From Gemmatimonas sp. (GTDB lineage Bacteria; Gemmatimonadota; Gemmatimonadetes; Gemmatimonadales; Gemmatimonadaceae), in contig NZ_JAPZSK010000002.1 in NCBI RefSeq assembly GCF_027531815.1, positions 434,001 through 498,000 on the forward strand: a stretch of DNA of 64,000 nucleotides. Reading direction: 5' to 3'. Below, piece by piece: positions 5,492-51,298 of the stretch. How positions within the stretch are numbered: position 1 is the first letter of the stretch; each line of letters starts with the position of its first letter. The position numbers and the translations under genes were made by a program. The notes beneath the pieces were generated by a model. It was not told the origin of the DNA, did no database searches, and was given only the letters and a program-made list of their open reading frames with translations.

Positions 5492-7528
5492 GTGCCTGCT
5501 GACGATCTGCCACTCTGGCGTCCCGCTGCCGCCGATGTCGCGGCCGCGCAACTCACGCGCTTTCGTGAGGGGCTCGTGGCGCGCGGTGTCGTCCCCGCGC
5601 ACGTGCACGACGCGCACGCACTGCAACGCTGGTCGGTGGAGCACCTCGCCGAGTTCTGGGCGGCCGTCTGGCAGGCCGCCGAGATCGTGGCCGATGGACC
5701 GGGGGCGGCCCACGCCCCCTGGCGTGCCGTCCTCGAGCAGGGGGAGGTCATGCAGCCGCCGCATGCCGGACCACAGGGCCATATCGGGCCGCAGTGGTTT
5801 ACCGGCACGCGCCTCAACTTCGCCGAACAGCTGCTGCGCCGCCGCGACGATGGGGTGGCGCTGGTCGCGTGGAACGAACAGGGAGCACAGCGCCGCATCA
5901 CGTATGCCGAGCTGGCCGCACAGGTGGCGCAGTGCGCCGCCGCGCTGCGCGCCCTGGGGGTCGGCCCCGGTCACCGTGTGGCCGGGTGGATGCCCAACCT
6001 GCCGGAAACGGTGATCGTCATGCTCGCGGCCGCAGCCATTGGCGCCACATGGTCCAGCTGCTCCCCCGATTTCGGCACCAAGGGCGTGCTCGACCGCTTT
6101 GGCCAGATCGCCCCCACCGTACTCGTGGCGGCCGACGGCTACCGGTACGCCGGCAAGGAGATCGACTGTCTCCCCCGGCTGCGCGAAATCGCGGCGGCCA
6201 TCCCGTCGTTGGTGGCGGTGTGGGTGGTGCCATATCTGCGTATGGCGCCCTCGCTCGACACGGTGCCCGGTGCCGTGCATTTCCCCGAGGTGCTGGCGGC
6301 CCACGACCACGATCGCACGCCGCGCTTCGAGCGCCTCCCGTTCGATCACCCGCTCTACATCCTCTACTCGAGCGGAACGACCGGACTGCCGAAGTGCATG
6401 GTGCACGGGGCCGGCGGCACGTTGCTGCAGCATTGGAAAGAGCTGGCGCTGCACACCGATCTGCGGGCCGGTGATGTGCTCTTCTACTTCACCACCTGCG
6501 GGTGGATGATGTGGAACTGGCTGGTGTCAGGGCTGGCCCTCGGCGCCACGGTGGTGCTGTACGATGGCGCGCCGCTGGCGCCGGACCCCACCATTCTCTG
6601 GCGCATGGCGGCGGCGGAGCGCGTGACCGTATTCGGCACGAGTGCGAAGTATCTGGCCATGTGCGAGAAGGAGGGGGTCGTTCCGCGGGAGTGTGCTGAT
6701 TTGCGGGCACTCAAGGTGGTGCTCAGCACCGGCAGTCCGCTGGCCTCGCACAGCTACGACTATGTCGCGCGCGCGGTGGGCTCGGGGGTTCGGCTGTCGA
6801 GCATCAGCGGGGGGACCGATATCGTCAGCTGCTTCGCCCTGGGAGATCCCACGGGGCCGGTGCATCGCGGCGAACTGCAGATGCGCGGGTTGGGCATGGC
6901 GGTGGAGGTGTTCGATGAGCAGGGGGCTCCCGTGCGCGGGGTGCCGGGGGAACTGGTGTGCACGAAGCCGTTCCCCAGCATGCCCGTGGCCTTCTGGAAC
7001 GATCCCGACGGGGCGCTCTATCGCGCCGCCTACTTCGAACAGATTCCCGGCGTGTGGCGCCATGGCGATTGGGCGGAGATCACGCCGCACGACGGGCTCG
7101 TGATTCATGGCCGCAGCGATGCCACGCTCAATCCGGGCGGGGTCCGCATTGGCACGGCCGAAATCTACCGGCAGGTCGAACAGATCCCCGAGGTGGTGGA
7201 GTCGCTGGTCGTGGAGCAGACGATCGGCGACGGCGACTCCCGGGTGGTGCTCTTCGTGCGGCTGCGTGAGGGGCACGACCTCACGGAGACGCTGCAGCAG
7301 CAGATCCGCCACCGCATCCGCGAGCACGCCAGCCCCCATCACGTCCCCAGGGTGATCGTGGCCATTGGCGACCTGCCGCGCACGATCAGCGGCAAGATTA
7401 CGGAGCTGGCGGTGCGCGAGGTCATCCATGGGCGCCCCGTGAAGAACGTGGATGCCCTCGCCAACCCTGCTGCCCTCGAGTTGTTTCGGGATCTTCCCGC
7501 CCTGCGTCTTCCCTTGCCCCCCCGCTGA
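5492..7528 (+). CDS. aacS: Acetoacetate--CoA ligase
   Basis: This 678-residue acyl-adenylating enzyme has the length and layout of acetoacetyl-CoA synthetase: the extended N-terminal ACAS-type region ending in HIGPQWFTGTRLNFAEQLL, the phosphate-binding loop LYSSGTTGLPK at 291-301, the CGWMMWNWL segment typical of this subfamily, and C-terminal adenylation motifs (HGRSDATLNPGGVRIGTAE, then ISGKITELAV with the catalytic Lys). It converts acetoacetate, ATP and CoA to acetoacetyl-CoA. The start is GTG 5492. The tyrosine-catabolic genes begin 409 bases downstream on the same strand; that route ends in acetoacetate, which suggests a joint role. Confidence 0.93.
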   Translation: MPADDLPLWRPAAADVAAAQLTRFREGLVARGVVPAHVHDAHALQRWSVEHLAEFWAAVWQAAEIVADGPGAAHAPWRAVLEQGEVMQPPHAGPQGHIGPQWFTGTRLNFAEQLLRRRDDGVALVAWNEQGAQRRITYAELAAQVAQCAAALRALGVGPGHRVAGWMPNLPETVIVMLAAAAIGATWSSCSPDFGTKGVLDRFGQIAPTVLVAADGYRYAGKEIDCLPRLREIAAAIPSLVAVWVVPYLRMAPSLDTVPGAVHFPEVLAAHDHDRTPRFERLPFDHPLYILYSSGTTGLPKCMVHGAGGTLLQHWKELALHTDLRAGDVLFYFTTCGWMMWNWLVSGLALGATVVLYDGAPLAPDPTILWRMAAAERVTVFGTSAKYLAMCEKEGVVPRECADLRALKVVLSTGSPLASHSYDYVARAVGSGVRLSSISGGTDIVSCFALGDPTGPVHRGELQMRGLGMAVEVFDEQGAPVRGVPGELVCTKPFPSMPVAFWNDPDGALYRAAYFEQIPGVWRHGDWAEITPHDGLVIHGRSDATLNPGGVRIGTAEIYRQVEQIPEVVESLVVEQTIGDGDSRVVLFVRLREGHDLTETLQQQIRHRIREHASPHHVPRVIVAIGDLPRTISGKITELAVREVIHGRPVKNVDALANPAALELFRDLPALRLPLPPR

Positions 7529-22899: not shown

Positions 22900-22973
22900 G
22901 TGGCCGTAGCTCAATCGGTTAGAGCACCGGATTGTGGTTCCGGGGGTTGCGGGTTCGATTCCCGTCGGTCACC
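22900..22973 (+). tRNA. tRNA-His (anticodon GTG)
   Basis: Cloverleaf with acceptor GTGGCCG/CGGTCAC, D-loop AGCTCAATCGGTTAGAGC, anticodon GTG in GGATTGTGGTTCC and T-loop GGTTCGATTCC. First gene of the seven-tRNA cluster. CCA is not encoded. Confidence 0.95.
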
Positions 22974-23014
22974 CTGAACACACTGGCGAGCAGCGATCTT
23001 TCGCCGCTCTCCGG

Positions 23015-23087
23015 AGGTCCGTAGCTCAATTGGTAGAGCACCGGTCTCCAAAACCGGCGGTTGGGGGTTCGATTCCCTCCGGGCCTG
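23015..23087 (+). tRNA. tRNA-Trp (anticodon CCA)
   Basis: Cloverleaf with acceptor AGGTCCG/CGGGCCT, anticodon CCA in GGTCTCCAAAACC and T-arm GGGGGTTCGATTCCCTC. It follows tRNA-His by 41 bases in the same orientation. Confidence 0.95.
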
Positions 23088-23241
23088 TCAGAACAACAGT
23101 TTTGAGTTTTGAGTTGTCGGTGCTGAGTGGAGACGCTTGGTAGCGGCGGGCTGGGCGACAGAAACGAGGGGCGATCAGGAGTCGTGATCGCGGCAGGGAA
23201 CAGTTGTACCGCCGAGGCGTCATGCCTTGGCGAGACGCCTC

Positions 23242-23314
23242 GGCGGTATCGTCTAGGGGACTAGGACACAGCCCTCTCAAGGCTGGAACACGGGTTCGAA
23301 TCCCGTTACCGCTA
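23242..23314 (+). tRNA. tRNA-Glu (anticodon CTC)
   Basis: The D-arm GTCTAGGGGACTAGGAC is typical of tRNA-Glu; the anticodon is CTC in GCCCTCTCAAGGC and the T-arm is CGGGTTCGAATCCCG. Acceptor GGCGGTA pairs with TACCGCT, with G.T as the first pair. The 150 bases before it contain a short TTTTGAG repeat and no recognised gene. Confidence 0.92.
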
Positions 23315-23358
23315 TTCGCTGGACGTTGCTGCAGGCAGATGGTCTGAATCACATCTAC

Positions 23359-23430
23359 GGCTCCATCGTCTATCGGTTAGGACGCGACCCTTTCAAGGTC
23401 GAGAGACGGGTTCGATTCCCGTTGGAGCTA
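23359..23430 (+). tRNA. tRNA-Glu (anticodon TTC)
   Basis: Second glutamate tRNA, with anticodon TTC in GACCCTTTCAAGGTC, D-arm GTCTATCGGTTAGGAC, and acceptor GGCTCCA/TGGAGCT with a terminal G.T pair as in its neighbour. Together the two read both Glu codons. Confidence 0.93.
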
Positions 23431-23450
23431 TGAAGGTGCAGGTGTAGTTG

Positions 23451-23525
23451 GGGGGCGTAGCTCAGTTTGGTTAGAGCACTCGACTGTCACTCGAGAGGTC
23501 GCGGGTTCGAGCCCCGTCGCTCCCG
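23451..23525 (+). tRNA. tRNA-Asp (anticodon GTC)
   Basis: Acceptor GGGGGCG/CGCTCCC, anticodon GTC in CTCGACTGTCACTCGAG and T-arm CGGGTTCGAGCCCCG. Its G34 is the usual queuosine position, the later target of the GluQRS-type enzyme encoded at 58610. Confidence 0.94.
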
Positions 23526-23604
23526 TCGTTGTTCGGGCTCAGCAGGTGCAGGTTGCAGGTTGCAGGCGCAGGACGCACAAACTCGGTCGCAAGCCGAGCC
23601 CCTC

Positions 23605-23686
23605 GCTCTGGTGGTGAAATTGGTAGACACGCCGTCTTGAGGGGGCGGTGCCGCAAGGCGTAGCGGTTCGAGTCCGCTCCAGAGCA
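23605..23686 (+). tRNA. tRNA-Leu (anticodon GAG)
   Basis: Class II tRNA with a long variable arm (GGTGCCGCAAGGCGT). Acceptor GCTCTGG/CCAGAGC, anticodon GAG in CCGTCTTGAGGGGGCGG, T-arm GCGGTTCGAGTCCGC. Confidence 0.93.
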
Positions 23687-23713
23687 TGCAGGTGTTGGTG
23701 CAGTCGCGTCACC

Positions 23714-23785
23714 GCCACAGTAGCTCAGTGGTAGAGCACCCGATTCGTAATCGGGCGGTCATCGGTTCAATCCCGATCTGTGGCT
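23714..23785 (+). tRNA. tRNA-Thr (anticodon CGT)
   Basis: Acceptor GCCACAG/CTGTGGC, D-arm AGCTCAGTGGTAGAGC, anticodon CGT in CCGATTCGTAATCGG and T-arm TCGGTTCAATCCCGA. Last gene of the cluster, 16 bases before the terminator hairpin. Confidence 0.95.
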
Positions 23786-23801
23786 CTTCAAAAACCGGTC
23801 G

Positions 23802-23837
23802 AATTCCCGGTCCGCACTGCGGACCGGGAATTTTTTT
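23802..23837 (+). terminator. Rho-independent terminator of the tRNA cluster
   Basis: AATTCCCGGTCCGC and its exact complement GCGGACCGGGAATT flank a two-base loop and run into a seven-T tract. It lies right after tRNA-Thr, with the convergent nuclease gene ending six bases downstream, so it may serve both strands. Confidence 0.93.
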
Positions 23838-23842
23838 GTCGG

Positions 23843-24772
23843 TCACTCGGGCCAGGGAATCTCTTCCAGCCCCGGCCCCGCCGCAGTCCGCGTAACCGGC
23901 GCCGCCACTCCCACCGAGTCCGCCGATCCCGCGGCTGCACCCGGGCGCGAACGCGTCACGCTCCCCGGCGGCCAGGCCACCGCGTCGAGTGCGCAGCGCG
24001 CCAGGTCGAAGAGCGGCAGGGGGGCATCCTGCCGAATGGTGGTGAGCCGACGCATCAGCCGCGCCTGCTCATGCTGCCCCGCCAGCTTCGCCGTCTCATC
24101 GCGATGGCTCACGAACTCGCTCGCCTCGAGCGCCTTCTCCAGCGACTGCCAGCGACGCAGCAGCTTCGCTGCGGTCCCCTTGCCGATGCGGGCAATGCCG
24201 GGAATGTCGTCACCATCCTCACCGCACAGGGCCTTGAAGTCGGGGAGCTGCGACGGCGTGACACCGAATCGGGCGTGCACGTCGGCCGCCAGCCATCGCC
24301 GCACGCGCAGCCCGTCGGTGCCTTTCCCCACGCCCACATACGACACCACCTGCACCTGGTCGTCCACGAATTGGAGCAGGTCCGAGTCGTTGGAGAGCAG
24401 CGTGACCGGCAGCGTGGCGCGGAAACCGGCCATGATCGAGGCCACCACGTCGTCACCCTCGAAGCCTTCCACGCTCACACTCATCACCCCGGCGCCCTCG
24501 AGTGCCGTGCGAATGGGCGCGACACGTGTGCGCGTGTCCCCCGTCCGGCGGTGCTTGTACGAGGGAAAGAGCCCGTGGCGGAAGGTCGGGCCGTCGTGGT
24601 CCCACGCCGCCACCAGGTGCGTGGCCCCCACATCCATGGCGGTGCCACGCGCCATCTGACACCAGAGGCGCACCCCCGCGGTAACGTCGTCACTGGCCAC
24701 GTGTGCGGCACGGGCAGCGAGCGACTGGGCATCGATGACGAGCAAATGCAGCGACGACGGCAAGGCAGACAT
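23843..24772 (-). CDS. 5'-3' exonuclease / FEN-like nuclease
   Basis: The 309-residue protein is a stand-alone Pol I 5'-nuclease (FEN/ExoIX-like) domain: acidic metal-site motifs LLVIDAQSL, AAWDHDGPTFRH with YKHRR, GFEGDDVVAS and LLSNDSDLLQFV, then a helix-3-turn-helix DNA-binding motif DDIPGIARIGKGTAAKLL. Such enzymes cut 5' flaps in replication and repair. A proline/Ala-rich tail follows. ATG 24772 starts with MSALPSSLHLLVIDAQ; the longer frame crosses the divergent MFS promoter region. Only 35 bases separate it from the MFS start. Confidence 0.9.
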   Translation of the reverse strand: MSALPSSLHLLVIDAQSLAARAAHVASDDVTAGVRLWCQMARGTAMDVGATHLVAAWDHDGPTFRHGLFPSYKHRRTGDTRTRVAPIRTALEGAGVMSVSVEGFEGDDVVASIMAGFRATLPVTLLSNDSDLLQFVDDQVQVVSYVGVGKGTDGLRVRRWLAADVHARFGVTPSQLPDFKALCGEDGDDIPGIARIGKGTAAKLLRRWQSLEKALEASEFVSHRDETAKLAGQHEQARLMRRLTTIRQDAPLPLFDLARCALDAVAWPPGSVTRSRPGAAAGSADSVGVAAPVTRTAAGPGLEEIPWPE

Positions 24773-24807
24773 GGCCTCAACGTACTCGTCCGGTGCACAT
24801 TGCGCCC

Positions 24808-26133
24808 ATGATTCCCTCGAACCCCGGGACGGCTGCCGGTGGCGCGACAGGTACGACACGTCGTCGCCGTCTGGTCCTGCTGATGCTGCTCGTGGCATAT
24901 ACGTTCAATTTCCTCGATCGGCAGATTCTGGGGATTCTCAAGGAGCCCATCAAGGCGGAACTGGGGCTCAGCGATACGCAGCTGGGGCTTATGGGCGGGT
25001 TGGCGTTCGCGCTGTTGTACAGCACGCTGGCGGTGCCCATCGCTTGGCTGGCTGATCGGGTGAGTCGCACGTGGATCATCACCGCGGCCCTGGCCTCGTG
25101 GAGCGCCTTCACCATGCTCTGTGGCGTGGCGACCGGGTTCTGGTCACTCTTCCTGGCGCGGGTGGGCGTGGGGCTCGGTGAAGCCGGCGGTGTGGCCCCG
25201 GCGTATTCGCTCATCGCCGACTATTTCCCGCGCGCGCAACGCGCGCGCGCGCTGGCCGTCTACAGCTGGGGCGTACCGCTCGGCTCCGGCGCCGGCATCA
25301 TGTTCGGTGGCCTCATGGCGGCGTGGGTCGATTGGCGCTGGGCGCTCCTGCTGATAGGCGGCGCGGGCGTGCTCTTCGCACCGCTGTTCAAGTGGGTCGT
25401 TCGCGATCCCGTGCGCGGCGGGCTCGATGGCGCCGAGGCAGGCGTGGGCGGAGCAGGGCCGACGGCTGATGCGATCACGGTACCGTTCCGCACGGTGGCG
25501 ACCCGCGTGGCGAACGTTCCCGCCTTCTGGATGCTGGCGCTTGGAGCGGCCTGCTCCAGCATCTGCGGGTACGGTCTTGGCTTCTGGCTCCCCAGCTATT
25601 TCATGCGCAGCCTGGGGTTTACGCTGAGCCAGACGTCGGTGTATTACGGCAGCATTCAGCTGCTCGGTGGTATGGCGGGAATTTGGTTGGGCGGGGCGAT
25701 CGCCGATCGACTGGGGGCACAAGATCGGGGCGCGTACGCACGAACGCCGGCGGTGTGTTACGCCGTGGCGCTGCCGTTGCTGCTCTTGGCCATGCATACG
25801 ACACACCCGGTGCTGGCGTGGCTGCTGTTCGTGGTGCCCACGGGGCTCAACCTGGCCTGGATGGGCCCGGTCATGACGGCGGTACAGCACCTGGTGCCGG
25901 CGCACATGCGGAGCACGACCAGCGCCCTTTTTCTGCTGGTGGTCAACCTGCTTGGTCTGGGTATGGGGCTGTGGATCTTCGGGTTCCTGTCCGACCGCCT
26001 GGCCCCGTGGTACGGGGCGGAGAGCATGCGGTACGCCATCACGTGCGGACTGGGCTTCTATGCGGCCGCCGCCGTGCTCATGCTGTTGGCCTCCCGCCAC
26101 CTCCCCGCCAGGTGGGTGGACGCGGCCGCCTGA
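24808..26133 (+). CDS. MFS transporter, spinster-like
   Basis: The 441-residue protein has about twelve membrane helices and the features of spinster-type MFS transporters: FNFLDRQILGILKEPIKAEL at the first helix, the loop 2-3 motif AWLADRVSRTW, and GVGLGEAGGVAPAYSLIADY in helices 4-5. Substrates of this family range from sphingolipids to aromatic acids, so none is assigned. ATG 24808 follows a GTG (24793) by five codons. It is divergent from the nuclease gene and followed by tRNA-Gly. Confidence 0.88.
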   Translation: MIPSNPGTAAGGATGTTRRRRLVLLMLLVAYTFNFLDRQILGILKEPIKAELGLSDTQLGLMGGLAFALLYSTLAVPIAWLADRVSRTWIITAALASWSAFTMLCGVATGFWSLFLARVGVGLGEAGGVAPAYSLIADYFPRAQRARALAVYSWGVPLGSGAGIMFGGLMAAWVDWRWALLLIGGAGVLFAPLFKWVVRDPVRGGLDGAEAGVGGAGPTADAITVPFRTVATRVANVPAFWMLALGAACSSICGYGLGFWLPSYFMRSLGFTLSQTSVYYGSIQLLGGMAGIWLGGAIADRLGAQDRGAYARTPAVCYAVALPLLLLAMHTTHPVLAWLLFVVPTGLNLAWMGPVMTAVQHLVPAHMRSTTSALFLLVVNLLGLGMGLWIFGFLSDRLAPWYGAESMRYAITCGLGFYAAAAVLMLLASRHLPARWVDAAA

Positions 26134-26195
26134 AGGGGGGTGGGAGTCTGCCTGTTGTCTCTGCCGGTGTTGCACGCTAGCTTTCGGTTCACATC

Positions 26196-26268
<73 letters not shown>

Positions 26269-43764: not shown

Positions 43765-44841
43765 TCAGGCGATCAGATCGGCCGTGGCCTCGCCGGGTGA
43801 CCGCACACCGGCGAGGGCAAAGGCCAGATCCACCTCGTCGCGCAGCAGCGACAGCACGTGACGTGCTCCTTGCTCACCGTTGGTGGCCAGCCCCCAGAGC
43901 AGGGGACGCCCGAGCAGCACGGCGTGCGCCCCCAGGGCGAGCGCCTTGAGCACGTCGGTGCCGCGGCGAACCCCGCCATCCACCAGGAGCGTGCCGCGCC
44001 CCTGCATGCACTCGGCCACGTCGCGCAACGCGCGCGCGGTAGGCACGGCCGTGTCGAGCTGGCGGCCGCCATGGTTGGACACGATGACGCCGCGCGCCCC
44101 ATGCTCGAGTGCCAGGAGGGCATCATCGCCGCGTACGATGCCCTTCACGTAGATGGGCAGCTGCGTGATCGACTGCAGCCATTGCAGGTCGCGCCAGGCG
44201 ATGCCGGCATCCCAATGGTGCAGGATGAATTGGGCCAGCGCCGACGACATGTCCGCGGACGTCCCCAGGGTACTCCGCATGTCCACCCCAAGGTTGGGGG
44301 CGGGAAACTCGGGCGGAACGTGAAAGCCGTTGAGCAAGTCGCGCTCACGCCGACCGAGCATGGGCGTATCCACGGTGAGGACCAGCCCGGTGCACCCGGC
44401 ACGTTCGGCGCGCTGCACCAGCTCCATGGTGACGCCGCGATCACGATAGATGTACAGCTGGAACCAGAGCAGCCCCGTCGTGGCGGCCCGTACCGATTCG
44501 ATCGTGCAGTTCGACAGGGTGCTGAGGATCATCCCCGACCCCGCGGCCGCGCTGGCGCGCGCCGTGGCCACCTCGCCCTCGGCGCAGGCCATCTGCTGAA
44601 AGGCCATGGGCGCCACGATGACCGGCCATTCGAGACGGTGACCCTCGAGCTCCACCGACAGGTCGCGCCGGGAGACGTCGCGCAGCACGCGGTAGCGAAT
44701 GCGCAGGGCATCCCACGCCGTGCGCGACTCGCGCAGCAGGATCTCGTCGTTCGCGCCACCCGCGTAGTAGTCGTACACCATGCGCGGCAGCCGCAGGGCA
44801 GCTTCCGCCTCGTAGTCGTGCAGATTGACAGGCATCGGCAT
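43765..44841 (-). CDS. FMN-dependent alpha-hydroxy-acid oxidase/dehydrogenase
   Basis: The 358-residue TIM-barrel enzyme shows the family features: YDYYAGGANDEILLRESR near residue 25, MAFQQMACAEGEVATARASA, FQLYIYRDRG, the lysine-containing YVKGIVRGDD, and the catalytic ARGVIVSNHGGRQLD with His and Arg. Members oxidise glycolate, lactate or related hydroxy acids with FMN; the substrate is not fixed by the visible residues. ATG 44841 or 44835. It converges with the amidohydrolase gene, four bases between stops. Confidence 0.92.
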   Translation of the reverse strand: MPMPVNLHDYEAEAALRLPRMVYDYYAGGANDEILLRESRTAWDALRIRYRVLRDVSRRDLSVELEGHRLEWPVIVAPMAFQQMACAEGEVATARASAAAGSGMILSTLSNCTIESVRAATTGLLWFQLYIYRDRGVTMELVQRAERAGCTGLVLTVDTPMLGRRERDLLNGFHVPPEFPAPNLGVDMRSTLGTSADMSSALAQFILHHWDAGIAWRDLQWLQSITQLPIYVKGIVRGDDALLALEHGARGVIVSNHGGRQLDTAVPTARALRDVAECMQGRGTLLVDGGVRRGTDVLKALALGAHAVLLGRPLLWGLATNGEQGARHVLSLLRDEVDLAFALAGVRSPGEATADLIA

Positions 44842-44870
44842 ATTCTACGGGTCTCCCACTCACCTTGCCC

Positions 44871-45233
44871 GTGAACAGCCTCTCCTTCACGCGGATCCGC
44901 CAGCGCTACACCGACGACACGACCCTGGGCGGCACCGGCGCCGCCCCCGCGCTGGCGCGCGCGCTCGAGTTCATCGGCTGGCGCGCGGTACGCGAACCCA
45001 CGCCGGAAGAGCTGGCGGGGCATCTGGCACTGTTGCTGGATCATTGCGTGCATGAGCACCGCGATGTCATGGCGCTGACGGACGGCATCGCCATGGCGCT
45101 CCGCGACACGGGTCCGCTGCTCGATGGCGGTCTGCCGCCGGTCGAGGCGTACTATCCCGCCGCGGAAGCGCTGCTGCGGCGGTATCTGGCTGATGATGGC
45201 GTGGCACATCAGCCGGTCCCTTCGTTCCTGTAG
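44871..45233 (+). CDS. Hypothetical protein, 120 residues
   Basis: I do not recognise the family. The product (GTG 44871; an in-frame TTG lies at 44865) is helical: ALARALEFIGWRAVREPTPE, LAGHLALLLDHCVHEHRDVM and YYPAAEALLRRYLADDG. No signal, membrane segment or catalytic motif is seen. It is divergent from the hydroxy-acid oxidase gene with about 30 bases between starts and lies 75 bases upstream of the peptidase gene. Confidence 0.65.
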   Translation: MNSLSFTRIRQRYTDDTTLGGTGAAPALARALEFIGWRAVREPTPEELAGHLALLLDHCVHEHRDVMALTDGIAMALRDTGPLLDGGLPPVEAYYPAAEALLRRYLADDGVAHQPVPSFL

Positions 45234-45308
45234 CCCCGCAACGCCTCCCCGCCGTCGTCCCGCCGTTCACCGCTGGCAGACTCCCCCCTCACGCCGCAGG
45301 AGCTTCCC

Positions 45309-46769
45309 ATGGGTCGCCGTTCCGTCGTTCTGGTTACCGCTGTCGCCGCGCTGGGGGCCATGGGCCTTCCGCAACACGCCGGGGCGCAGCCCGCGTCTGC
45401 CGTGTATCGACCCGGGGCCCTCACGCCATTCCAGCAGATGACCCGCGAGATCTACAAGGAGCTGGTGGAGATCAACACGGGCGTGGAAACGGGGAACATC
45501 ACCACGGCGGCAAACGCCATGGCCACCCGCTTCCGGGCGGCGGGTGTTCCCGACGCGGACATCTTCGTGGGCGGGCCGCGTCCCGAGAAGCACAACGTGG
45601 TGGCGCGACTGCGCGGCAGCGGGCGCGGTGGCCCGCAGAAGCCGATTCTCCTCCTGGCCCACATCGACGTGGTGGAGGCGCTCAAGGCCGACTGGTCCCC
45701 CGAGTTCGATCCGTTCGTCTTCACCGAGAAGGACGGCTACTACTACGGGCGCGGCACGGCCGACGACAAGGCCATGGCCGCCATCTTCGTGGCGAACGTG
45801 TTCCGCATGAAGCGGGAAGGGTACGTGCCCGACCGCGACATCATCATTGCGCTCACCGCCGACGAGGAGAGTGGTCCCGCCAACGGCGTGGACTGGCTGC
45901 TCAAGAACCACCGGCCACTGGTGGACGCCGCGCTCGTCATCAACGAGGGGGGCGGTGGCACGCTGCGCAACGGGAAGCCGCTGTTCAACAGTGTGCAGGC
46001 CGCGGAGAAGGTCACGACCAACTTCACGTTGCGCGCGACCAACAAGGGCGGCCACTCCTCGGTGCCGCGCGACGACAACGCGATCACGCAGCTCGCCGAT
46101 GCGCTCGGCAAGGTCGGGCGCCACAAGTTCGCCGTGAAGCTCAATGACGTGACGAGGGCGTTCTTCTCGCAAACGGCGGCGCTCGAGGAGCCGGCGATGG
46201 GACGGGCCATGACGGCGCTGGTGAAGAACGTTGGCGACGCAGCGGCGGTGGCGGTGGTGACCGCCGATCCCCGCTACAACTCCATGCTGCGCACCACCTG
46301 CGTGGCCACGGAGCTCAAGGGTGGGCACGCCACCAACGCGCTGCCGCAGCTGGCCGAGGCCAACGTGAACTGCCGCATCTATCCGTCGGAGTCGGCGGAG
46401 TCGGTGCGGGCGGAGCTTGAGCGCGCGGTCGGCGATACGAACGTCAAGGTCATCATCCGCTCGCAGCGTCCCAGCACTCCGGCGTCGGCGCTGTTGCCGG
46501 AGGTGATGACCCCCGTGACCCGCATTACGGCGGAGCTGTGGGGCGCCATGCCCATCATCCCCACCATGAGCACGGGGGCTACCGACTCCCGGTTTTTTCG
46601 CGCCCTGGGGATTCCGGCGTTCGGGGTATCGGGGCTGTTCAGTGATCCCACCGTGGACGCGCGCGCACACGGGCGCGACGAACGCATGGCGGTGAAGAGC
46701 TTCTACGAGGGGCAGGAGTTTCTCTATCGCCTCACCAAGGCGCTCGCGAGCGCGCCGACGCGGCAGTAG
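45309..46769 (+). CDS. Exported M20-family metallopeptidase
   Basis: The 486-residue product has a signal peptide (RRSVVLVTAVAALGAMGLPQ) and an M20 catalytic domain: LLLAHIDVVEA (His118, Asp120), RGTADDKAMAA (bridging Asp near 153) and ALTADEESGP (Glu186/187), followed by the lid domain and the final metal His region AHGRDERMAV. The relatives are carboxypeptidase/acetylornithine-deacetylase-like dizinc enzymes acting on peptides or N-acyl amino acids. Upstream spacing suggests its own promoter. A 42-base direct repeat lies just downstream. Confidence 0.92.
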   Translation: MGRRSVVLVTAVAALGAMGLPQHAGAQPASAVYRPGALTPFQQMTREIYKELVEINTGVETGNITTAANAMATRFRAAGVPDADIFVGGPRPEKHNVVARLRGSGRGGPQKPILLLAHIDVVEALKADWSPEFDPFVFTEKDGYYYGRGTADDKAMAAIFVANVFRMKREGYVPDRDIIIALTADEESGPANGVDWLLKNHRPLVDAALVINEGGGGTLRNGKPLFNSVQAAEKVTTNFTLRATNKGGHSSVPRDDNAITQLADALGKVGRHKFAVKLNDVTRAFFSQTAALEEPAMGRAMTALVKNVGDAAAVAVVTADPRYNSMLRTTCVATELKGGHATNALPQLAEANVNCRIYPSESAESVRAELERAVGDTNVKVIIRSQRPSTPASALLPEVMTPVTRITAELWGAMPIIPTMSTGATDSRFFRALGIPAFGVSGLFSDPTVDARAHGRDERMAVKSFYEGQEFLYRLTKALASAPTRQ

Positions 46770-47033: not shown

Positions 47034-47777
47034 TCAGTGCGTGAGCGCGTACACCAGATAGTTGGTGGCGAACTTGTATGCGTCGTTGCTGAGGTTCACA
47101 GCGTACCAGCCTTGCCCCGACCACTCCATGTAGTCGCCGATGTCGTTGTTGAAGTTCACGATCACCATGAGACGGCGCGACGGATCATTGCCTTCGAAGA
47201 TGCCATAGTACTCGGCCCTGGCTGAGCGCGCCGACGGATGATGCATGCCATCGAGCGTCCCGATGGTGAAGAAGGCGTTGAAGATGGGGTGCGTGCGGTC
47301 GAGGCGGATGAACTGGGCCTCGGGAAGCACTGCGCGCATTCCGCGTGCAAACACCTCCCACTGCCGCAGATAGAAGTCGTCGACGATGAGGAAGCCGCCT
47401 TTCTGCAGCCATGTCCGCAGTCCGGCGGCTTCCTGCTCGTCGGGGTACCAGTAGCCCGGCTCCGACAGGTAGGCGATGGGATGGTGCGACAGCAACGGGT
47501 CGTCCATGCGGTGCACGTTGCTGCCGGCCACGTGCGGGCGCATGGCGGTGAGATCCTGCACGATGGTCATGAAGTTGCGCTCCATGGCCGGGTAGTCGAA
47601 CGCCCAGCCATTGGGGCCGTACTCCGTGTAGCGCAGACGCACGAAGGTGAAGCGCCCATCGTAGGGCACGTTGGGCTCCACGAACGTGCGAAAGCGCTGC
47701 GACCATCCCAACGACGTGGTGCCCGCCAGCAGCAGGAGCCCCCCCAGCAGCCGGCGCGCATGGCGGGGAGCGCGCAT
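47034..47777 (-). CDS. DUF4159 domain protein, exported
   Basis: From ATG 47777 the 247-residue product has a signal peptide (ARRLLGGLLLLAGTTSLGWS) and a DUF4159 domain: FTFVRLRYTEYGPNGWAFDY, LSHHPIAYLSEPGYWYPDEQ, LQKGGFLIVDDFYLRQWEVF and a C-terminal VNFNNDIGDYMEWSGQ. DUF4159 has a class I glutamine-amidotransferase-like fold of unknown role and is common in Bacteroidetes-type and Gemmatimonas-type genomes. The start overlaps the stop of the thioesterase gene (TGATG), so it is probably translated with the flavin module upstream. Confidence 0.85.
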   Translation of the reverse strand: MRAPRHARRLLGGLLLLAGTTSLGWSQRFRTFVEPNVPYDGRFTFVRLRYTEYGPNGWAFDYPAMERNFMTIVQDLTAMRPHVAGSNVHRMDDPLLSHHPIAYLSEPGYWYPDEQEAAGLRTWLQKGGFLIVDDFYLRQWEVFARGMRAVLPEAQFIRLDRTHPIFNAFFTIGTLDGMHHPSARSARAEYYGIFEGNDPSRRLMVIVNFNNDIGDYMEWSGQGWYAVNLSNDAYKFATNYLVYALTH

Positions 47778-48214
47778 CAGCCCGGTAACCGGAGCAGCGT
47801 GTGCAGGGCGTCGCGCGTGGCAGCGGGAATGGGCGTGGGGCGCCGCGTGCTGCGGTCCACGTGGACATGGACGAAATGCCCCGTGGCACAGGCGAGTTGG
47901 TCGTCGTTGCGAAAGACTCCCAGCTCGTAGCGCACGCTCGACGTGCCCAGATGCGCCACGCGCAACCCCACGGTGATGCGGTCCGGGAAGGCGAGGGGAG
48001 CGTGGAAGCGACACTGCGTTTCGGCAACGAGCGCGATGGTCTCGCCCGCCACCACATCGAGCAGCTGGCGCTCGATGAGCCACCGATTCACCGCGGTGTC
48101 GAAGTAGCTGTAGTAGACGACGTTGTTGACGTGCCCGTAGGCGTCGTTGTCCATCCAGCGTGAATCGAGTGCGATGCACTCCGCGTACCCTGCACGCGTT
48201 TCCACTTGCGCCAT
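47777..48214 (-). CDS. Acyl-CoA thioesterase (4HBT hot-dog fold)
   Basis: The 145-residue protein has the 4-hydroxybenzoyl-CoA thioesterase signature SRWMDNDAYGHVNNVVYYSY, with the catalytic Asp and the HVNN helix start, and the usual strand pattern (AETQCRFHAPLAFPDRITVG, SVRYELGVFRNDD). It hydrolyses acyl-CoA thioesters; the chain length is unknown. ATG 48214 is needed to include the first strand, so the first 127 bases overlap the end of the NqrB/RnfD-like gene in another frame, which is unusual. Confidence 0.9.
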   Translation of the reverse strand: MAQVETRAGYAECIALDSRWMDNDAYGHVNNVVYYSYFDTAVNRWLIERQLLDVVAGETIALVAETQCRFHAPLAFPDRITVGLRVAHLGTSSVRYELGVFRNDDQLACATGHFVHVHVDRSTRRPTPIPAATRDALHTLLRLPG

Positions 48215-48966
48215 CCTTCCCAGAGATTGGCCACCAGCAACCCGCCCAGCAGGAAATACACCGCGCCCACCAGCATGAACAGGGCAAAGCCGGCCGCCGC
48301 CGCAATGATCCCGAACACCACCTGATCGGCGGCCTTGGGGGGCGAGGTGGGCGGATCGGTCAGCATGAAGCTGGCGAAGAAGAGCACCATGTGCACGTCA
48401 GGGGCCCGGTACAGCTCGGCCACGCGTGCGGCATCGCCAAGGAAGGCCACGGTGGTGCCCAGCGCGAAGTGCGCGCCGAGGTAGGCCAGGAGCAGCGGCA
48501 GCTTGTGCAGGCGCTGCGTCATGAAGAGGCCGGTGGCCACGGTGAGCAGCAGCCAGGGGGTGGCAAGCTCCGGGAGCGCGCCCCACCAACTCTGTCCGGT
48601 ATCGAAGACGTAGTAGCTGCTCACCAGCGCCGCCGCCGCCGGGTTGAGCACATTCGCCCGGCGCACGCGCAGGGCATGCTTGGCCACGATGCCCAGCACA
48701 CCCGTCGCGCCGGCAACGGTCCACGGGACATGGGGGCTGAGCACGAGCCCCACCAGCCAGCCGGTCAGCATGGCGCCGTCGGGCACACTCCAGTGTCCAT
48801 CGCGCCAGCGCAGCAGCGGGGTGTCGGTGATCGCCGCCGCCGTGATGGCCGCGAGCACCCCCGGCAGCACGAGCGACCAGCCGGCATGGTGCGCGGCCGG
48901 AACCGTGAGCAGCAGCAGAATGCCGGAAAAGAGCCCCTTGGGGGAGCGCAGCCAGCGGGCGGTCAT
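48088..48966 (-). CDS. NqrB/RnfD-like membrane electron-transfer subunit
   Basis: From ATG 48966 the 292-residue protein has about eight membrane helices and the NqrB/RnfD pattern: DGAMLTGWLVGLVLSPHVPW, the RRANVLNPAAAALV segment, and FMLTDPPTSPPKAADQV, the family's TDP-x-S/T-x-P motif. In Nqr and Rnf complexes this subunit carries FMN and quinone/riboflavin sites. The final 30 residues (a Thr/Ser-rich tail) are read across the thioesterase start, so the true end may be earlier if there is a frameshift. It lies directly after apbE (ATGA overlap), which fits a flavinylated protein. Confidence 0.85.
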   Translation of the reverse strand: MTARWLRSPKGLFSGILLLLTVPAAHHAGWSLVLPGVLAAITAAAITDTPLLRWRDGHWSVPDGAMLTGWLVGLVLSPHVPWTVAGATGVLGIVAKHALRVRRANVLNPAAAALVSSYYVFDTGQSWWGALPELATPWLLLTVATGLFMTQRLHKLPLLLAYLGAHFALGTTVAFLGDAARVAELYRAPDVHMVLFFASFMLTDPPTSPPKAADQVVFGIIAAAAGFALFMLVGAVYFLLGGLLVANLWEGWRKWKRVQGTRSASHSIHAGWTTTPTGTSTTSSTTATSTPR

Positions 48967-49907
48967 GCGGCGTCGGAACGGGTGAAGGTAGACGCGCCCC
49001 ACCCGTGCACCTCGTGGTGCGCACCCGCGGCGTCAAGGAAGTAGCCGTCCACCTGTTGCGCCCGGAGTAGTGCTGCACCGGCCTCTGCCCCCAGCACGAA
49101 CGCGGCGGTGGCCAGCGCGTCGGCTACCACGGCCGTCGGCGCAACCACCGTCACACTGCGTAACCCCACCGAAGGCGTTGGCGCCGTGGCGCGCGGGTCC
49201 AGCAGATGATGGCCGGCTGCCGTAGCGCGGGTGTAGTCGCCGCTGGTGCACAGCGCGTATTCCTGCGCCGCGACGTCCACCACGCACGCGGCTCCTTCCC
49301 CCTCTACGGGATGGCGCACCGCCGTGCGCCACGGCGTCCCCCGCGGATTGTGCCCTCGACAGTGCAGGTCACCGCCGGCCACGATGCACACGTTTGGCAC
49401 GTCGTGCAGTGATTGCGCCGCAAGGTCCAGGGCAAAGCCCTTGGCGATCCCTCCCAGGTCGAGCACCGTGTGCGGCGGCAGCGCAATCGTGCTTGCTGCC
49501 TCGTCGAGCACCGCCTCGCGCCAGGCCCCCGACAGGTGTGGAGCCGTCGCGTCGGGGGTGGGCCTCAGCGACACCTGGTGACCATCCTGCCACGACCGAT
49601 CGAAGCCGTGGTGGTGCAGGGCGCGGCCAAGTGTGGGGTCGAACGCCCCGTCGGTGGCCGCGGCCACCGCCCATGCCACGCGCAGGAGTGCGAAGAGCAG
49701 CGGCGACACCGGCTGCGGGCTTCTCTCACCACGGCAGAGCGCGCTCACCTCCGAATCCCCCAGGAAGCGTGAACAGTGTGCTTCCACCACCCGAAACCAC
49801 TCCACGGCTTGTGCGGCGCGAGTCGCGGCCTCGGGGATGGCTCCGACCAGCTGCACCGACACCGTCGTGCTCATCGCCGTGGTCACGAACTCCGTGGCTG
49901 CAGTCAC
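48963..49907 (-). CDS. apbE: FAD:protein FMN transferase (ApbE)
   Basis: The 314-residue protein has ApbE motifs: VEWFRVVEAHCSRFLGDSEV at the N-terminus, ATDGAFDPTLGRALHHHG, TVLDLGGIAKGFALDLAAQ, VCIVAGGDLHCRG and the metal-site TSGDYTRATAAGHHLLDPRA. The enzyme transfers FMN from FAD to a Thr or Ser of target proteins outside the cytoplasm. No clear lipobox or signal is seen from GTG 49907, which overlaps the stop of the FMN-binding gene (GTGA). Its position between a presumed substrate and the NqrB/RnfD-like gene is a strong contextual link. Confidence 0.94.
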   Translation of the reverse strand: MTAATEFVTTAMSTTVSVQLVGAIPEAATRAAQAVEWFRVVEAHCSRFLGDSEVSALCRGERSPQPVSPLLFALLRVAWAVAAATDGAFDPTLGRALHHHGFDRSWQDGHQVSLRPTPDATAPHLSGAWREAVLDEAASTIALPPHTVLDLGGIAKGFALDLAAQSLHDVPNVCIVAGGDLHCRGHNPRGTPWRTAVRHPVEGEGAACVVDVAAQEYALCTSGDYTRATAAGHHLLDPRATAPTPSVGLRSVTVVAPTAVVADALATAAFVLGAEAGAALLRAQQVDGYFLDAAGAHHEVHGWGASTFTRSDAA

Positions 49908-50734
49908 TGACGCGCGGCCTTCAGCGCTTCGACGACGGCGTAGTAGAACGCGTTGGCGCTCTCCGTTGCGCCGGACACGTTGTCCACCTCGGGGCTTTGG
50001 CGCTCCACCACCTGCGGCTGCAGATGCGCGATCCAGGAGCAGGAGTAGCGCGTGAGGCAGCGGCTGATGGCGGCCGCGGTGATGCGTCCCTTTTCGATGA
50101 TCACCGTGGCTTCCACGTCGCCGTGCCGTGAAGTGCCCCACCCGGAATAGGTCCCGTCCTTCAAGCTCACGGGTCCCGCCGGCTTGGCGGGGGTTGGGGT
50201 GGGGGCGGGGGTGGCGGTGGGGGTGGGGGTGGGCAGCGGCGTCGGTGTCGGCTCAACCGGGGGAGAGGGCGCTGCGAGCGTCGGGGCCGCAGCGGGCGCG
50301 GCAGTCGGTTCCGCTGGCGATGGCGCCACCGCCGATGGAGTCGCAGGTGTGGTGGGGGCGGCGAGCGTTCTCGCGGAGACGACTGTTGGCGTGTCGGCGC
50401 GCCGCTTCGGTGCCACAGCCTTCACGCGCTCTGACCCCAGCTCTGACCCCAGCTCTGACCCCAGCTCTGACCCCAGCTCTGACCCCAGCTCTGACCCCAG
50501 CTCTGACCCCTGCTCTGACCCCTGCTCTGACCCCTGCTCTGACCCCTGCTCTGACCCCAGCTCTGACCCCGGGACACTATCGGCGCTGGCGGGGGGACGC
50601 CGCATTGTGCTGCGGGCGGCCAACTCGGTCGCCGCCGCCTCGGTACGCACGTAGCCAGCCGCATAGGCAGCCAGCACGGCGGCCGTACTCACGGCGAGCA
50701 GCGGACCGGATGGCGAACTCGGCTTGGCAGGCAC
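49904..50734 (-). CDS. FMN-binding domain protein with tandem-repeat linker
   Basis: From GTG 50734 (alternative GTG 50788) the product is 276 residues: a membrane anchor at about 11-33 (LLAVSTAAVLAAYAAGYV), a linker made of twelve four-residue units GSEL/GSEQ (about residues 55-103) encoded by the 12-bp minisatellite, a long Ala/Pro/Thr region, and an FMN-binding domain (about 191-276: LKDGTYSGWGTSRHGDVEA through VDNVSGATESANAFYYAV). Thr257 in SGAT is the expected FMN attachment site, to be filled by the ApbE encoded next. It resembles RnfG/NqrC-type domains and probably acts in the periplasm. Confidence 0.87.
   Translation of the reverse strand: MPAKPSSPSGPLLAVSTAAVLAAYAAGYVRTEAAATELAARSTMRRPPASADSVPGSELGSEQGSEQGSEQGSEQGSELGSELGSELGSELGSELGSELGSERVKAVAPKRRADTPTVVSARTLAAPTTPATPSAVAPSPAEPTAAPAAAPTLAAPSPPVEPTPTPLPTPTPTATPAPTPTPAKPAGPVSLKDGTYSGWGTSRHGDVEATVIIEKGRITAAAISRCLTRYSCSWIAHLQPQVVERQSPEVDNVSGATESANAFYYAVVEALKAARQ
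50428..50571. repeat. 12-bp minisatellite, twelve copies, inside the FMN-binding gene
   Basis: Twelve tandem copies of gctctgacccca (four carry t for a in the last position) occupy exactly 144 bases. On the minus strand they encode the GSEL/GSEQ linker. The same unit occurs in non-coding DNA at 55896-56029. Confidence 0.95.
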
Positions 50735-51298
50735 GGGCGACGGGACGCGGCGAGGGGGAAGGCACCGACTGCATGGCGGGCGTACCACGACGCGTACGCT
50801 ATGGTGAAAGAGAACGTTGGTCGGCAGACCAGACGAGGGATACGACCAGTCCAACGCGCTGTTCAACGGCTGCACCGACCGGAATCCTTGAGTCCGGACC
50901 TGTGCACCAGCGGTACGCGCGGCCCCTGCTCCTGTGGAGCAGGGGCCGTTTGCGTTCGCACTGTTTCCGAAACAGTGTCGCGTGTACCGGCGCCCAACGC
51001 GACGCGAGCCTTCGGTTGACCCCAAACGCCGCTGCTGTGACCCGACAGGGCGCGTCTGCGGTTGCTAAAAGTGCGCCAATGTGGGACGAGTCGATGGCAA
51101 TCGCATCCGTCGCTTGATCTGCCAGTCGCGGCGCATACACTTCCGCTGGCGAACACTGCCGCATCGATGCGCGGGCGACACCTTACCGTGAACCGCTCGC
51201 CGTCGTGCCGGTCGCTGCAACCCGGCGTTCTCCCCCCTCCGAACGTCGGTCCCCCCTCCACCAATCCGTCGCCCTTGCGGGCGTCCGGAGGCGAATTC
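50735..51298. other. Divergent intergenic region upstream of susC-type and FMN-binding genes
   Basis: About 560 bases without a supportable gene. It should hold promoters for both directions. Two sharp inverted repeats are present: 50920-50948 (CGGCCCCTGCTCC/GGAGCAGGGGCCG, loop of three, followed by TT) and 50959-50977 (CACTGTTTC/GAAACAGTG with one central base). The first looks like a terminator stem with a poor U-tract, odd for a place where transcripts begin; the second looks like a protein-binding palindrome. Confidence 0.6.
50920..50948 (+). terminator. GC-rich hairpin, possible attenuator or terminator
   Basis: Perfect 13-base stem CGGCCCCTGCTCC/GGAGCAGGGGCCG with a three-base loop, followed by only TTTG when read on the plus strand. 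It lies 350 bases upstream of the SusC start, so it could be an attenuator in a long leader. Confidence 0.4.

Follow-up and report, generated by a model that had tools for sequence, protein, structure and literature searches.

What kind of electron-transfer system is encoded by a locus that pairs an FMN transferase with a single RnfD-like membrane protein, and on which side of the membrane does its flavin domain work? Within the 64,000-nt stretch of Gemmatimonas sp. DNA analysed here (the window), a preliminary description had read five overlapping minus-strand genes at positions 47034-50734 as an extracytoplasmic flavin module lacking the other Nqr/Rnf subunits. Our best reading is that the locus encodes in effect the quinone-side half of Nqr (the NqrC FMN, the NqrB riboflavin and quinone), lacking NADH input, NqrDE partners and the covalent NqrB FMN.

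Gene content and conservation of the locus

Junctions read directly in the DNA confirmed that all five minus-strand genes are real and overlap, as first described, and each gave a Pfam match over the cut-off. The gene for FMNb (49904..50734; 276 aa with a GTG start at 50734) encodes an N-terminal anchor, a linker and a C-terminal FMN_bind domain (49904..50164, delimited by alignment A1 and an AlphaFold model); its match to FMN_bind (PF04205) is weak, with 24.2 bits against a cut-off of 22. It shares 4 nt (GTGA) with the gene for ApbE, an FAD:protein FMN transferase without a signal peptide (48963..49907), in which PF02424 (187.4 bits) is matched over 1-265 of 266, so that the domain spans the full length. 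A second 4-nt overlap (ATGA) joins ApbE to the RnfD/NqrB-like membrane protein (48088..48966; 292 aa, ATG start; NQR2_RnfD_RnfE, PF03116, 44.2 bits). The RnfD-like gene overlaps that of a 4HBT/YbgC-like thioesterase (47777..48214; 4HBT_2, 82.2 bits) by 127 nt (48088-48214) in different frames, with a similar overlap in locus L006. The sequence TGATG connects the thioesterase to a DUF4159 protein (47034..47780; 154.3 bits) that has an apparent N-terminal signal by eye.

The window proteins were compared with 16 loci from a relatives search with the RnfD-like protein, with 40 regions from lower-scoring PF03116 matches in a sample of 298 genomes of the phylum, and with three regions (L099-L101) from the phylum of genome G298; L102 was looked at apart, outside the count. 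After merging of identical DNA, 40 distinct loci matched the RnfD-like protein at E 1e-4. The genes for FMNb, ApbE and the RnfD-like protein stand in the same order and on the same strand in 38 of these 40, a count that covers relatives of this RnfD-like protein and not RnfD-like genes in general. The two exceptions are L013, whose sequence is interrupted here by a run of N, and L086, which belongs to a different RnfD family. Other RnfD families (L081, L083-L085, L087-L090 and others) gave no match at E 1e-4.

The two remaining genes behave differently. Besides the window, the thioesterase follows the triad in five of the 38 triad loci (L006, L062, L078, L079 and L080) and DUF4159 in only two (L006 and L062). 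Because they are seen in few triad loci, these genes do not define the composition: they are accessory add-ons of some Gemmatimonas, the thioesterase having been met in some close relatives alone. A functional module of five, in which the thioesterase and DUF4159 share in the redox function, would agree with the overlap of all five genes in the window and with their joint presence in L006 and L062. Against the low counts just given, and with four DUF4159 copies in the window's genome, we consider it very improbable. The neighbourhood comparison that the preliminary description had proposed thus keeps three genes together and replaces its five-gene composition with a conserved unit of three.

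Hosts of the triad are Gemmatimonadota and a few Acidobacteriota. An FMN-domain profile found matches in 29 of 298 Gemmatimonadota genomes. In the phylum of G298, the genome that contains L020 and has a record titled Acidobacteria, it matched 5 of 297 genomes; one of these five, G337 (L102), carries a different, flavocytochrome-type protein. The RnfD-like protein was scanned against genome contigs, and the search for the FMN domain in another phylum was made in that of G298. In plasmids the RnfD-like protein had no match and the FMN domain a single distant one, to a flavocytochrome; viral contigs contained no match. The nearest relative is L006 (titled Gemmatimonas sp.), at 87% for the RnfD-like protein. 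A record titled Candidatus Kuenenia stuttgartiensis (L018 / L052) contains DNA that is also placed in the window's genus, and its title looks wrong.

The FMN-binding and RnfD-like subunits

In FMNb, a linker of ~164 residues rich in Ser, Glu, Pro and Ala separates the membrane anchor from the FMN_bind domain. The domain holds a CX5C pair (Cys226 and Cys232) and an SGAT motif whose threonine, counted from the GTG start, is residue 257 (codon 49966-49964), the number given in the preliminary description. Both SGAT and CX5C are invariant in 30 of 30 aligned FMN domains (alignment A1). The AlphaFold model of the domain has a pLDDT of 93.8 and matches the solved structure of an FMN_bind domain, 8p2a, with a Z of 12.8; together with the 30 aligned sequences, these values secure the weak Pfam match. 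An hhalign comparison of A1 with RsxG was not significant, and the link of FMNb to RnfG/NqrC rests on Pfam and fold. The idea of an Fe-S scaffold, raised by a Z of ~8 between the FMN_bind fold and IscU, was dropped after hhalign of A1 against E. coli IscU gave nothing.

Outside A1, the cysteine pair and SGAT are both present in L100 and L101. In L099, a copy from the Acidobacteriota phylum, the pair is kept and VSRAT replaces VSGAT (near 7057-7330), through mutation or sequencing error; the ApbE and RnfD-like genes beside it look apparently intact. The altered motif of this copy counts against the relay described below. The protein in L101 (8608-9009, in a genome of the G298 phylum) is a lone short FMN_bind protein, and nothing within its 17 kb matches the window's ApbE or RnfD-like protein. 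The FMNb linker in the window contains a 12-bp tandem repeat (50428-50570; 11.9 copies, 98% match) that encodes Gly-Ser-Glu-Leu/Gln units, and a second, 6-bp array lies at 50189-50233.

The AlphaFold model of the RnfD-like protein (pLDDT 87.3) reaches a Z of 23.5 to RnfD (8rbq_D; 256 residues aligned at 4.8 A) and of ~21 to NqrB, with the next rows at 11.6; its fold is that of RnfD/NqrB. Alignment places a gap of ~70 residues opposite the SQAT stretch (the flavin-threonine linker) of E. coli RsxD, and the pattern [ST]GA[ST] occurs in none of the 30 rows of the RnfD-like alignment A2. Judged from these alignments, the covalent-FMN loop of RnfD/NqrB is lost from this protein. The riboflavin contacts that a legend in PMC10643135 lists for NqrB (T162, N200, N203, A205, F342 and D346) align via RsxD to T69, N106, N109, A111, F201 and D205 of A2, positions that do not vary in any of the 30 sequences; residue numbers in the 292-residue protein are the A2 numbers minus one. 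NqrB G198, which contributes only its backbone, aligns with a variable position of A2. A fused C-terminal NAD-binding domain (PF00175) is not present: PF03116 was the only family found, and the protein ends after its last helix.

Other PF03116 proteins were met along the way. Another stand-alone RnfD-like family (L083, L085 and L090; also L081, L084 and L087-L089 by cluster) keeps the WNP and TDP motifs, adjoins FG-GAP/ASPIC-UnbV proteins (by Pfam on L085 and L090) and has no relative of FMNb or ApbE in the locus maps. A third type, a 473-aa protein in L077 (3048-5445), matches the family over its C-terminal half alone and is followed by a sulfatase-modifying-factor (FGE) protein.

Above the cut-offs, ApbE, NqrB/RnfD and FMN_bind are each represented by a single gene in the window's genome, all at this locus. 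Neither NqrDE/RnfAE (PF02508) nor an RnfC/NqrA-type subunit (by RnfC_N, PF13375) was found in it, and with zero matches to these families and no second ApbE, FMN_bind or RnfD gene, the genome yielded no complete Nqr or Rnf operon that could account for ApbE. The description of a stand-alone RnfD-like subunit in a flavinylation-type module without the other Nqr/Rnf subunits therefore holds in this genome. NqrDE/RnfAE are absent from 13 of 14 triad genomes; the remaining one, G063, has an Rnf operon with an ApbE of its own.

Sidedness of the FMN domain and of ApbE

An anchor helix was recognised by pattern in 28 of 35 FMNb reading frames; among the seven others, some are cut by contig ends or stops and some are whole. 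The linker measures 109-199 residues in the 28 scored proteins. The flanks of the anchor helix carry charges of +2.3 on the N side and +0.07 on the C side. Of the 28 proteins, 24 have a higher net charge in the 15 residues preceding the helix than on the C side, four have equal charges and none has a lower one; this count may take in residues that lie ahead of the true start. These flank charges predict that the FMN domain is located outside the membrane. NqrC, like RnfG, is anchored by a helix and has its domain outside.

The ApbE of the triad, which aligns with the solved FMN transferase 4xgw at E 9.2e-24, is the only ApbE in 10 of 14 triad genomes. Its genes seem to start with the conserved domain or shortly ahead of it, and none of the loci read showed an export signal or lipobox, judged by eye and from in-frame stops. 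Seven distinct loci (L007, L008, L011, L012, L021, L062 and L075) have a stop 14-22 codons upstream of the MGT/MST motif, which leaves too little space for the usual signal peptide; in most other loci the frame is open upstream into the FMNb gene, with no obvious signal by eye. Four triad genomes have a second ApbE. By eye, the N-terminus is of twin-arginine type in L117 and of Sec type in L118, so these two paralogues in the phylum look exported; L119 also looks exported, less clearly. An export signal or lipobox on ApbE is usual, not universal. A cytosolic ApbE is known from Klebsiella pneumoniae (PMC12052999).

A cytosolic ApbE fits poorly with a target outside. The term 'extracytoplasmic' of the preliminary description is not established: the FMNb anchor predicts an outside domain, and ApbE lacks an export signal. 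There are three options: the FMN domain is inside, it receives its flavin before export (one possibility for how a signal-less ApbE reaches its target), or ApbE leaves the cytosol by some other route. We tentatively consider, at somewhat better than one chance in three, a new type of flavinylated electron transfer, with attachment of FMN in the cytosol and a domain that either works inside or goes out already flavinylated. If kept inside, its FMN might work against the riboflavin and quinone of the RnfD-like protein; if exported, it would break the rule that envelope proteins receive their flavin outside.

The reading that we favour, with about an even chance, is a minimal flavin relay of two proteins that links the quinone pool to the cell envelope, together with its own maturation enzyme. 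ApbE would attach FMN to Thr257 of FMNb, and the RnfD-like protein would hold a non-covalent riboflavin within the membrane. Through the RnfD-like protein, electrons would move between the quinone pool and the FMN on its tether, in a chain running quinone - riboflavin - FMN - envelope partner, for which we infer flavin occupancy, the quinone as partner, the outside position of the FMN domain and any direction of flow. The FMN of FMNb may dock in the cavity that RnfD/NqrB fills with a covalent FMN of its own, a domain on so long a linker would be able to reach its envelope partner, and the CX5C pair may serve as a structural disulfide or as a thiol relay near the flavin.

The same proteins could instead face inward, with a cytosolic FMN domain flavinylated by a cytosolic ApbE and exchanging electrons with the riboflavin, which in the RnfD-like protein lies nearer the cytosol; this would make the triad a cytosolic flavin:quinone reductase and not an envelope system. 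This arrangement agrees with the signal-less ApbE of every locus read (seven with an in-frame stop at most 22 codons upstream), set beside signal-bearing paralogues elsewhere in the phylum (L117, Tat-like; L118, Sec-like), with the loss of the outer covalent FMN of RnfD while the inner riboflavin site is kept, and with the K. pneumoniae precedent. It conflicts with the flank charges, none of which is reversed, and with RnfG, whose anchor helix carries a domain outside (PMC9588780), and a linker of 109-199 residues is difficult to account for on the inside. On balance we think it unlikely, at rather under one chance in three, and retain the envelope relay as the working model.

Relation to Nqr, Rnf and published systems

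The triad resembles Na+-NQR (NqrB, NqrC) and Rnf (RnfD, RnfG) in the fold of both subunits, the riboflavin ligands and an SGAT-type FMN site on the NqrC/RnfG-type subunit, and differs from them in that RnfC, NqrDE and RnfAE were not found and the covalent FMN of NqrB/RnfD is lost. Closer still are the Nqr/Rnf-like systems, in which the NqrB/RnfD domain continues into a fused PF00175 domain (Meheust et al. 2021, PMC8238504) and the covalent-FMN threonine of NqrB/RnfD is lost with an NAD domain fused (Huang et al. 2024, PMC10979944). Both share with the triad an NqrB/RnfD-like subunit without that threonine, and an NqrC/RnfG-type FMN_bind subunit with a flavinylation motif and ApbE. The defining PF00175 fusion is lacking here, which sets the triad apart, and it further differs in its signal-less ApbE and in a CX5C FMN_bind domain on a long linker. 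Its ApbE is like the cytosolic enzyme of K. pneumoniae in having no signal peptide; the target there is a soluble fumarate reductase (PMC12052999), whereas that of the triad is a membrane-anchored FMN_bind protein.

By analogy with the fused systems, the triad could be driven by NAD(P)H through an NAD-binding domain encoded elsewhere as a separate protein. The fusion in the nearest published system (PMC8238504) recommends this; no extra gene is conserved next to the triads, though, and the RnfD-like protein stops after its last helix, and we regard such an arrangement as improbable. The scanned neighbours of the triads are mostly peptidases, hydrolases and sortilin-like proteins, with no shared redox partner among them. 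With no conserved partner gene next to the triad, its donor and acceptor are guesses.

We found no description of the triad in the main text of the open-licence PMC papers that were searched. The main text of PMC8238504 and PMC10979944 has no mention of DUF4159, thioesterase or Gemmatimonad*, and PMC12174285 mentions neither Gemmatimonad* nor an RnfD-like protein. In open-licence PMC, no paper on this system was among the matches listed for Gemmatimonas and flavinylation, and none was found for DUF4159. The triad is a conserved system that surveys keyed on signal peptides or on a fused NAD domain could miss, and it offers a clear way to ask where ApbE acts. With one membrane protein for riboflavin and one FMN on a tether, it may represent Nqr/Rnf pared down to the smallest part that still works; if so, the quinone-side half of these pumps would be open to study without its ion-pump partners.

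Several features around the triad are recorded here in their own right. Rfam at gathering score gives only tRNAs in the window, with no riboswitch or other RNA upstream of FMNb. The 376-nt leader between FMNb and a divergent SusC-like gene has a folding z of -2.96 and contains two strong hairpins (50900-50985). Also beside the triad, an FMN-dependent dehydrogenase-family gene, a 122-aa orphan and an M20 peptidase (43765-46769) keep their position in close relatives only. Eight tRNA genes lie within 3.4 kb on the plus strand (22900-26268), seven of these in less than 900 bp.
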